Below, piece after piece: positions 15,995 through 21,070 of a stretch of DNA of 30,037 nucleotides. The first letter of the stretch is position 1; the number at the start of each line of letters is the position of its first letter. This stretch comes from a virus. The translations under genes were made by a program, and so were the position numbers. Where the stretch lies: IMG/VR virus record IMGVR_UViG_3300025127_000168, positions 1-30,037 of that record. One strand, 5' to 3'. The notes below the pieces were generated by a model that did not search any database, was not told where the DNA came from, and was given only the letters and a program-made list of their open reading frames with translations.

Positions 15995-16671
15995 CACTCT
16001 TCCTCATTATAAAGGTTATCAAACACCCTGTTTACATCTAACGTATAATCTAAATCACTTTTAGAATAATGTATATGAGCAGATGGCTTGAAGTCTGGGG
16101 CACCAGTCCCCGTCTCAAACCAAGCTGGATGAGTTACTCTAACACGGTTGTTGGGCAACGCCACAATATTTCCTGTCCACTCACCAGCATCAAGCAAATG
16201 CAACACATGGCTCTGCTTATGTTGTGCGGGATCATCCGCGATTTCGTTTTCTGAATAATCTACAGTGAACAAATATTTGGCAGGAAACATCTCGCCATCT
16301 ATCTTTGCAAACCAGGGACAAGGTGTGGCTCTATCTAAGACATACACAGCGTGGTTATGTGATGAGCAATCCCATGGTTGTGCATCATGAACAGCCATAG
16401 GGACAGGCCATTCTTCTAAAGGCTCATCTGCCACCAGTGCAGTGATAGGCATACGCGCCCACATCGCACCACCGTGTACAGTGTCCTCTTCCTCGCCTTC
16501 TGCTTCGATGCCCGTGAATATAACCTGAAAGCTCAACGACCTGCATGGCATAGTCGTCACAGCAATAGCCATGGCGTGTAAAAACTCGCCATGGTATTTC
16601 TCATGGTTGTGTGTGTATTCCCGGCGCACCCAGCACTTGAAGTGAGGGATGTTGCTTTGAAGATAAGGCAT
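15994..16671 (-). CDS. Conserved hypothetical protein (225 aa), His/Trp-rich
   Basis: ATG start overlapping the upstream stop by 1 nt. The N-terminus reads MPYLQSNIPHFKCWVRREY then THNHEKYHGEFLHAMAIAV; the core has GGAMWARMPITALVADEP and WDCSSHNHAVYVLDR, and the rest is beta-rich with many His and Trp residues (HKQSHVLHLLDAGEWTGN, VRVTHPAWFETG). Two Cys/His pairs could bind a metal, but no standard zinc motif is present. I have an impression of related proteins in marine phages with no known role. Position between the basic-protein cluster and the neck genes suggests a virion protein, but nothing shows it. Confidence 0.6.
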   Translation of the reverse strand: MPYLQSNIPHFKCWVRREYTHNHEKYHGEFLHAMAIAVTTMPCRSLSFQVIFTGIEAEGEEEDTVHGGAMWARMPITALVADEPLEEWPVPMAVHDAQPWDCSSHNHAVYVLDRATPCPWFAKIDGEMFPAKYLFTVDYSENEIADDPAQHKQSHVLHLLDAGEWTGNIVALPNNRVRVTHPAWFETGTGAPDFKPSAHIHYSKSDLDYTLDVNRVFDNLYNEEE

Positions 16672-19388: not shown

Positions 19389-19415
19389 AAAAGGAGAGGG
19401 GTTTTACCCCCTCTC
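19389..19415 (-). terminator. Weak intrinsic terminator or processing hairpin
   Basis: 8-bp perfect GC-rich stem (GAGAGGGG with CCCCTCTC, arms 19394-19401 and 19408-19415) around a 6-nt loop. On the minus strand it is followed by CTTTTG, a poor U tract. It sits in the 46-nt gap between the 208-aa and 206-aa genes, just before an AAGGAG ribosome binding site. It could attenuate rather than stop transcription, giving the upstream gene more mRNA. Confidence 0.55.
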
Positions 19416-19419
19416 GTTA

Positions 19420-20046
19420 CTAGGCTTCGTAACCCATCAATTCAATAAAGAGTTTACCAGCAGTATAATCAGCGTCAGTTGTGTCACCCAGTGTGAGGTA
19501 CAAGAACTCATCCGCAGCAGGTACAGCTGAGAAATAGACCTTACTACCAAGAGTAGCATCGCCTGCGTTTACCAAAAGGGTTTCTGTCAAACTAGAGATA
19601 GCACCGTCTTCAACACCTGTGCTTTCTGTAGCCGAATGTACGTTGATGTCTGGATCGCCACCAGCAGGTGCTTCAAAGCACTCCATGCTACCTGTCAGAA
19701 TCGTGCCGTTTCGGGCGGCTGTAATCTGACCAATGTGACATACGTTAGACGTTCCGTTCACACCGATGATGTCACCGCTTGCAGTTGAGCGCAAACCAGT
19801 CAGGTCGATAAGAATACGGGTAGTGATGATACCACCCACACGCTGGACAGCACTGCGATAAATCGTACCTGTGCCGCCTGTGATACCTGTTCCAGCTTCG
19901 GTTGCAAGTGTGTTTGCATCAAACGACGATACGCCTGTTGAACTGATGCTTGAGAGCGTTGTGATGGCTCCCGTTGTAGCGTTTTCACTGATTGAGGTGA
20001 ATCCACCTTTGGAGCGCACTGGCCCCGTGAATGTTGTATTAGCCAT
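19420..20046 (-). CDS. Structural protein following the internal promoter (208 aa)
   Basis: ATG with AGGAGA about 7 nt upstream. Begins MANTTFTGPVRSKGGFTSIS, a start typical of abundant virion proteins in marine phages. The rest is beta-rich with IYRSAVQRVGGIITTRILID, a glycine hinge GTNGTSNV-like region, GSMECFEAPAGGDPDINVHS, TETLLVNAGDATLGSKVYFS and a closing AGKLFIELMGYE. The gene lies directly after a promoter candidate and hairpin leader and is followed by a hairpin, which suggests independent, strong expression. Candidate head decoration or tail protein. Confidence 0.7.
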   Translation of the reverse strand: MANTTFTGPVRSKGGFTSISENATTGAITTLSSISSTGVSSFDANTLATEAGTGITGGTGTIYRSAVQRVGGIITTRILIDLTGLRSTASGDIIGVNGTSNVCHIGQITAARNGTILTGSMECFEAPAGGDPDINVHSATESTGVEDGAISSLTETLLVNAGDATLGSKVYFSAVPAADEFLYLTLGDTTDADYTAGKLFIELMGYEA

Positions 20047-20071
20047 GTAAATCTCCTGTCGTGGCTAGTGT

Positions 20072-20090
20072 CAGTCACACCATGTGACTG
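20072..20090 (-). other. Hairpin in 5' leader of the 208-aa gene
   Basis: Near-perfect palindrome CAGTCAC-acc-aTGTGACTG with a stem of 8 bp and a 3-nt loop. Relative to the promoter candidate its 5' edge would be about 7 nt from the transcription start, and it ends about 14 nt before the ribosome binding site. Position and shape fit a 5' mRNA stabiliser; an operator is the alternative. Confidence 0.5.
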
Positions 20091-20103
20091 TCAGGATTTT
20101 TAA

Positions 20104-20132
20104 AGTATAGACACAAAAAAAGGGGCGGTCAA
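20104..20132 (-). promoter_or_regulatory. Sigma70-like promoter inside the capsid terminator
   Basis: On the minus strand TTGACC (20132-20127) and TATACT (20109-20104) are separated by exactly 17 nt, matching TTGACA-17-TATAAT at 5 of 6 positions in each box. The -35 box lies in the loop and 3' arm of the capsid-gene terminator, and the T tract forms part of the spacer. The predicted start, near 20097, is about 50 nt upstream of the 208-aa gene. Confidence 0.55.
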
Positions 20133-20144
20133 ACAACCGCCCCT
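20115..20144 (-). terminator. Strong intrinsic terminator after the major capsid gene
   Basis: Perfect 9-bp stem (20121-20129 pairs with 20136-20144), loop of 6 nt, GC-rich, immediately followed on the minus strand by a run of seven T (20121-20115, the first paired at the stem base). It lies 18 nt after the capsid stop codon. There is no T run on the other side, so it is directed to the minus strand only. The sequence fits the textbook rho-independent form. Confidence 0.9.
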
Positions 20145-20161: not shown

Positions 20162-21070
20162 TTACGCGCCCGGTGAGCCGAACACGCACCGTGGGTCGCT
20201 AAAGCCGAAGCTATAACGCTCACGCGCCTTATAACGCATGTTGCCTGTATCGAAATCAGGCTCCATTTGTGTTGTCAGCGACAGACGCTCAAAGTGCTTG
20301 AAGCCATTCGGTGAGTCCGTCTTGATGAAGAACGCATCTGTGTCTGTCAGATAATCGTTTACGACATAACCTTCCGGCAACATTCCCATGTTGCGGATGG
20401 CATTTGTGTCGTTATCTGCCGTAGCAGTACGAAGATTTGAAGCCATCAGACGCTCTGCAACAAACTGAAGCTGACGCGGAATGATCAGTTTCGACCCGCG
20501 AAGGGCGATGATCAGACCACGCTCATCAACAAAACCAGCAATGCTGATCAGAGCATCTTCAAGAGATGTCTCGTTCAGATCAGCAGCTACGCTGGGTTCG
20601 TTAGCCAGTGTGCCACCATTAGTAAGCGGGTGATCAGTTGCACAAAGCTCTTTGCCATCGCCACCTTTTTTGGTGCTGTCGAAAGCATTGTTGAGAATTG
20701 CAGCAGCTTTAACCTGCTTAGTATGAGCCATGGCCCGTGCCAACGCACGAGTGTAACGAGATGAGAGACGATCATACAGATTGTCCTCAACAGCTTCTTC
20801 CGTTACGGAGAAAGCCGACGCTACTGTTTCGTGATTGTAACGAGCCGTGTATGCCTCTTGTGCGTCATCGAAAGTTACTGCTGAACCTTCAGACTTAGTG
20901 GGAGCAGCACCGAAACCAGACAGCATGACCTCTTCTTCAAAGGCTCTATCAGAAGCCTCTGTGTCGAAGATTTCAGCGTGTTGGCCTTCGTAACGGTTAT
21001 ACTCCATCCCGAACAGGGCGTTGAGGCCGGGTTCGAGTTCTTTTGCAAGTTGTGCGCGAGAAATAGCCAT
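20162..21070 (-). CDS. Major capsid protein, HK97 fold, Mu gpT-like
   Basis: 302 aa. Begins MAISRAQLAKELEPGLNALF. Contains a block common to gpT-like capsid proteins: YTARYNHETVASAFSVTEEA, then DNLYDRLSSRYTRALARAM, KQVKAAAILNNAFD, then DGKELCATDHPL and a later FVDERGLIIALRGSKLIIP. The final part has FFIKTDSPNGFKHFERLSLT, RYKARERYSFGFSDPR. Location (after scaffold-like and decoration-like genes) and length near 300 aa fit the family. No separate prohead protease is visible. The GroES-like gene upstream may help fold it. The gene is the last before a strong terminator, as expected for the most abundant virion protein. Confidence 0.82.
   Translation of the reverse strand: MAISRAQLAKELEPGLNALFGMEYNRYEGQHAEIFDTEASDRAFEEEVMLSGFGAAPTKSEGSAVTFDDAQEAYTARYNHETVASAFSVTEEAVEDNLYDRLSSRYTRALARAMAHTKQVKAAAILNNAFDSTKKGGDGKELCATDHPLTNGGTLANEPSVAADLNETSLEDALISIAGFVDERGLIIALRGSKLIIPRQLQFVAERLMASNLRTATADNDTNAIRNMGMLPEGYVVNDYLTDTDAFFIKTDSPNGFKHFERLSLTTQMEPDFDTGNMRYKARERYSFGFSDPRCVFGSPGA

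Follow-up and report, generated by a model that had tools for sequence, protein, structure and literature searches.

In the filamentous phages fd and M13, the junction of genes VIII and III carries a terminator after the major coat gene and a weak promoter for the minor-coat gene within the same small region. A literature search on this filamentous-phage precedent gave no usable paper. Terminator-promoter overlaps between neighbouring operons are known from bacteria and matter in Salmonella, where interrupting the tufB-secE overlap lowers fitness (PMC7055797). In phages T7 and LUZ100 a strong terminator stands right after the major capsid gene and capsid expression is under local promoter control (PMC10134795). 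Here we describe the junction behind a phage capsid gene. We consider it probable (roughly 80%) that a terminator and a promoter overlap at this site, between two virion transcription units, and that the overlap serves as a platform for a 5′-terminal RNA leader. Judged by comparison across a large, mostly marine group of phages, the overlap is conserved by selection and is not a chance match.

The window analysed is a 30,037-base virus record whose large structural genes lie on the minus strand, as do the parts of the site described here. The upstream transcription unit is that of the major capsid protein (20162..21070, 302 aa), which matches PHROG 371 (major head protein, 1.3e-23) and, above the curated cut-offs, Pfam Phage_capsid_4 and Mu-like gpT. 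The capsid stop is followed by a hairpin (20144-20121), a T run (20121-20115), GTGTC, TATACT, TTAAAAAT, the leader and an ATG at 20046. Read 5′ to 3′, the hairpin is AGGGGCGGT-TGTTTG-ACCGCCCCT followed by seven T; when folded, it forms nine Watson-Crick pairs (20121..20144, loop TGTTTG) and its GC-rich stem leads directly into the U tract (20115..20121), as expected of an intrinsic terminator. The −35 box TTGACC (20127..20132) straddles loop and 3′ arm of the hairpin, taking three bases from the end of the former and three from the beginning of the latter, whilst the 17-nt spacer (20126-20110) holds the remainder of that arm and the U tract. The −10 box is TATACT (20104..20109), and its position predicts a transcription start at an A, 7 nt past the box, at 20097 (± 1-2 nt). 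A first-pass annotation of this DNA had proposed just such a minus-strand promoter, TTGACC-17-TATACT with 5/6 matches to consensus in each box, with its −35 in the loop and 3′ arm of a perfect 9-bp terminator and the U tract in its spacer. Direct reading of the letters gave exactly this geometry.

The hairpin at 20144-20121 is the only strict terminator (a perfect stem of at least 8 bp with at least 6 T in 8) in the 30 kb, and five shuffles of the window gave none. The promoter match taken alone is unremarkable. Two sites with 5/6 in both boxes at spacer 17 were found in the window, compared to 1.45 ± 1.10 in shuffles, and the right half of the window contains 16 promoter-like sites against 17.6 expected. 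The only other one of these to score 10/12 is TAAACA-17-TATAAT (16006-16034, minus strand), which lies just upstream of a gene starting at 15997. Counts that equal expectation are what would be seen if only the terminator were real, the hexamers being chance matches in an AT-rich flank and the downstream gene being expressed by read-through. With the single-site match at chance level, comparison with relatives had to decide, and the significance of the promoter rests on its conservation.

Relatives were gathered from capsid homologues and from leader-pattern matches in viral contigs. These collections consist of environmental contigs that carry no host assignment. At least 245 distinct leader instances were reduced to 127 non-redundant junctions (<80% identity over the 45 nt upstream). 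Pattern searches fix some parts of the leader, and only the unfixed parts were counted as evidence. Among the 127 junctions there are three architectures by the distance from hairpin to leader, with class borders and non-redundancy thresholds of our own choosing. Class A (17-31 nt, n = 56), to which the window belongs, has a −10 box of at least 4/6 in 50 junctions. Class B (32-45 nt, n = 33) has one in 28, often preceded by TG, with a loop that is mostly CTTCGG and without a −35. Neither box is typical of class C (≤16 nt, n = 29), where a −10 was found in three. The −10 is thus kept in 78/89 spaced junctions compared to 3/29 abutting ones, and boxes of at least 5/6 pile up 8-10 nt ahead of the leader.

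The −35 box also has a fixed register. Class A junctions match TTGACA at 3.0-3.1 of 6 positions when the spacer is 17, compared to approximately 1.3 at other spacers. The distance from hairpin to −10 varies from 4 to 17 nt within this class, and the −35 tracks the −10, not the hairpin (mean 3.04/6, compared to 1.52 ± 0.17 in register permutations, with a maximum of 2.16 and 0/5000 reaching 3.04). We also considered that TTG might be kept because of its position in the hairpin register, but no peak was found in that register. The signal at spacer 17 holds among 24 sequences of less than 60% identity, in which T occupies each of the first two −35 positions in 88% and G the third in 58%; past TTG the hexamer is weak in most relatives. 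A −35/−10 pair within the 16-18 nt spacing of sigma70-type promoters therefore appears to be under selection. In all class A cases analysed the hexamer lies within the hairpin loop and arms, such that terminator and promoter share conserved sequence. Terminator loops differ accordingly between classes: hairpins that leave the −35 position outside mostly have a UUCG loop, and those that enclose it have a −35-like one.

These architectures have changed repeatedly. Counting only supported branches of the capsid tree, class A must have changed at least 10 times, class B at least 8 times and class C at least 7 times, which argues that the pattern is not one frozen ancestor. U tracts seemed to be weaker where the promoter is missing, significantly so in raw counts, but this vanished in phylogenetically independent pairs on the capsid tree and is not counted in favour of the promoter. 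The capsid gene and the leader are less than 150 nt apart in 252/279 loci. Extra sequence between them was found in 24 loci, yet in 23 of these a box resembling the −10 (matching at 3/6 to 5/6, and almost always TAnnnT) stands 8-11 nt from the leader. The box is thus a partner of the leader, not of the capsid terminator.

In class C loci (L083, L087, L222, L232, L268 and others) the leader abuts the terminator hairpin and leaves no space for a −10, so expression there would need read-through or another mechanism. That these relatives keep the leader and the gene without a promoter again fits a site at which only the terminator is real. However, such a site would explain neither the −10 at a fixed distance and a −35 that tracks it at spacer 17, seen in two clades (see below), nor terminator loops that differ by class according to whether the −35 position lies inside the hairpin. 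We therefore regard it as very unlikely; conservation rules out a chance match, despite the chance-level count for the single site. The nested promoter is not universal across the relatives, class B being without a −35 and class C without a promoter, and the family can evidently do without it.

A second clade gave the same picture. In the cultured pelagiphage HTVC023P, TTCACA-17-TATAAT lies inside the capsid terminator, and an Rfam scan did not find the Mu-gpT-DE leader described below. A mis-framed pattern for relatives of the HTVC023P leader (ACTGACYTAGNCAGAC) returned chance matches only, and relatives were instead recovered by a capsid-protein search. In 33 non-redundant junctions whose −10 scores 5/6 or better, the −35 match reaches 3.36 at spacer 17, compared to approximately 1.3 elsewhere (permutations 1.81 ± 0.21, maximum 2.55, 0/5000 reaching 3.36), and a −35 of at least 5/6 is present in 8/33. 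By this comparison the HTVC023P clade replicates the nested geometry, with many of its junctions carrying a different leader. The dual use of one element to end the capsid transcript and restart transcription, as put forward in the first-pass annotation, therefore gains support from the relatives. It is not the terminator alone that is conserved but the promoter boxes too, with a −10 in most spaced junctions, a class A −35 peak at exactly spacer 17 and a second clade in agreement. The nested arrangement holds in class A and in the HTVC023P clade; as a universal feature it does not.

The structured leader at the HTVC023P junction (L319:4935-5089) is also present in DSL-LC04 (L316:4916-5046) and in relatives such as L567, L577, L580, L589, L599, L612 and L618. 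Its three helices interlock, their strands following one another as P1a-P2a-P1b-P3a-P2b-P3b, and P3b contains or adjoins the Shine-Dalgarno sequence. Over 22 sequences, 92% of the cells of P1 and P2 are paired, both-side changes occur at all 12 pairs, and covariation is 0.66 compared to 0.23 in shuffles. No Rfam 15 family exceeded its cut-off in the loci scanned; permissive matches on the HTVC023P junction all fell below their own cut-offs, and the best of them cover the terminator. A putative further leader type (L610, L613, L617, L620, L637) follows the capsid terminator and a TATATT box, and has CCGGG/CCCGG and GCATGT pairing beside GAGG. Lastly, a short and possibly structured leader with a TTATTAAC...CTTCGGGGACTATTAACAAAAGGAG-like sequence was seen after the capsid terminator in L606, L635, L642 and L643.

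The first-pass annotation had overlooked the element at the start of the restarted transcript. Mu-gpT-DE RNA (RF03012) matches 20044..20096 over its full length (1-53); the score of 75.4 bits (E 1.5e-16) exceeds its gathering cut-off (49 bits), and no other Rfam family in the window reaches gathering level. As expected of this family, it lies downstream of a gpT-like capsid gene, which ends approximately 66 nt before the motif. The first base of the motif (20096) adjoins the predicted +1 (20097), and we read it as the 5′-terminal leader of a new transcript. The AT box could alternatively be an RNA-processing site or a part of the leader, with read-through RNA from the capsid gene being cut there and the leader forming the processed 5′ end. 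The tight spacing between box and leader would suit processing, as would the typing of Mu-gpT-DE in Rfam as gene/sRNA. Yet cleavage would leave a TTG-rich hexamer exactly 17 nt upstream unexplained, and in the HTVC023P clade this box stands ahead of a leader of unrelated type, so we give processing very little credence.

Two helices of the leader are supported by covariation. P1 pairs CCUG (20092..20095) with CAGG (20055..20058), the latter including part of the Shine-Dalgarno sequence AGGAG (20057-20053). When anchored on the 3′ part alone, CAAGG occurs with a TTG-type arm in 104/104 sequences and CAGG with a CTG-type arm in 120/121. P2 is the hairpin CAGUCACAUGGUGUGACUG (20072..20090), folded alone, which shows several compensatory pair types at its variable positions. 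The structure line of RF03012 contains only these two. A third helix, P3, is a probable pseudoknot crossing P1, in which UAGCCA in the linker (20062..20067) would pair with UGGCUA (20040..20045), which takes in the second and third bases of the start codon and also codon 2. In relatives the two strands co-change: GCC is found with GGC 205 times and CCC with GGG 125 times, whilst the 15 sequences that contain ATGGGCAA have a shifted pairing, TTGCC:GGCAA. Exceptions among 352 pattern matches are limited to 4 apparent false matches and 3 ACC linkers that still partly pair. P3 co-changes in 17/17 independent pairs and pairs in 83% of cells of a MAFFT alignment, a figure held down because the CCC type pairs in a shifted register. 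Some of these co-changes could stem from joint transfer of leader and gene start by recombination. Moreover, a covariation study lists Mu-gpT-DE among families with extra covarying pairs (PMC7657543), and P3 may therefore not be wholly new.

The leader opens onto a gene of 208 aa (19420..20046) whose predicted fold and position suggest a capsid decoration or cement protein. The model is beta-rich (pLDDT 75) and its best fold neighbours in the PDB are the capsids of phages Pam1 and GP4, which are weak matches (E 3e-3 to 4e-3); a PDB profile search with the protein gave no significant match. Genes at the same position are annotated as cement or minor capsid proteins. A search of the genome collection with the 208-aa protein found five relatives only. 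When 228 relatives are compared, their N-terminal 38 residues belong to a single family (MANTTFSGPVRSENGF...), whilst the remainder falls into at least 14 unrelated clusters of 67-329 aa; fold prediction for a second C-terminal family reached a pLDDT of only 39. Leader and N-terminus together look like a fixed docking module for exchange, and the product is likely a decoration protein whose fixed tail, the N-terminus, would bind the capsid. A second, weaker terminator-like hairpin (GAGAGGGG-GTAAAA-CCCCTCTC, 19394..19415) with a weak T tail lies after the gene and would make it a one-gene unit. Thus, of the earlier proposal that transcription restarts for the next virion genes, the restart is supported by conservation, but the plural may be too generous, as the unit may consist mainly of one probable decoration gene.

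Taken together, these data suggest the following sequence of events. RNA polymerase leaving the capsid gene would stop at the hairpin and U tract, giving a 3′ end near 20115, and a sigma70-type promoter in the same DNA would start a new RNA at approximately 20097. This RNA would open with Mu-gpT-DE, in which P1 uses nearly the first transcript bases and captures part of the Shine-Dalgarno sequence, whilst P3 would capture the region of the start codon. This arrangement probably serves to give the decoration protein a message of its own, separate from the very abundant capsid mRNA; the nested promoter would set the protein level and the leader would adjust it at translation. Capsid and downstream expression levels would in this way be decoupled.

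The polymerase involved may be that of the host. The cultured relatives CRP-901/902, which carry Mu-gpT-DE behind a class B-like junction, have no RNA polymerase gene (PMC10149686), and this suggests host transcription. The promoter could also be envisaged as serving an RNA polymerase that the phage encodes or modifies, or an activator, with a partial likeness to sigma70: four genomes of the CRP-901 group do encode an RNA polymerase (PMC10149686), and in class B the −10-like box, often after TG, is conserved without a −35. The classic −35/17/−10 arrangement in class A and the HTVC023P clade, reaching TTCACA-17-TATAAT, stands against it, as does the missing polymerase gene of CRP-901/902; the window itself is a partial genome. 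On balance we think such a promoter improbable and prefer a sigma70-type promoter read by the host enzyme.

With the junction read in this way, the orphan RNA family Mu-gpT-DE gains a concrete place as the first bases of an mRNA with a predicted promoter of its own, and from there it could mask the start site of the probable capsid-decoration gene. The junction would also show how compact phage genomes may end one message and begin the next within approximately 50 nt. The same type of junction reveals a second, uncatalogued pseudoknot leader, and control of capsid-to-decoration stoichiometry becomes directly testable in the cultured phages CRP-901/902 and HTVC023P. More speculatively, and at somewhat less than even odds, the junction may be a dedicated control module, in which a terminator loop doubles as a promoter and a 5′-terminal pseudoknot RNA keeps the ribosome-binding site out of reach. 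Pseudoknot leaders of at least two unrelated kinds would serve there, the HTVC023P/DSL-LC04 type being absent from Rfam, and the module would set decoration-to-capsid stoichiometry, perhaps through feedback by the protein product.

The likeness of the fd/M13 VIII/III junction to the capsid-decoration junction is offered as a lead only; these are unrelated phages, in which we know of no Mu-gpT-DE-like leader. As in Salmonella tufB-secE, the terminator of one operon shares sequence with the next promoter at a conserved junction. It differs in that virion genes of phages are involved, that the terminator hairpin contains the −35 and that the new RNA would start with a structured leader, and the case made here is one of sequence comparison. 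The strong terminator immediately behind the major capsid gene resembles the T7 type, as far as the available sections of that account go, but no restarting promoter inside the capsid terminator is described in them (PMC10134795). The leader resembles RF03012 in its full-length 75-bit match and its position downstream of a gpT-like capsid gene; the Rfam entry is typed as an sRNA gene with two helices up to the AUG, whereas here it is read as a 5′-terminal mRNA leader with a third helix reaching into codon 2. Against the literature searched, two features of the junction are apparently new: a −35 box conserved at a position within the terminator hairpin of a phage capsid gene, and the coupling of the nested promoter to a 5′-terminal structured leader.
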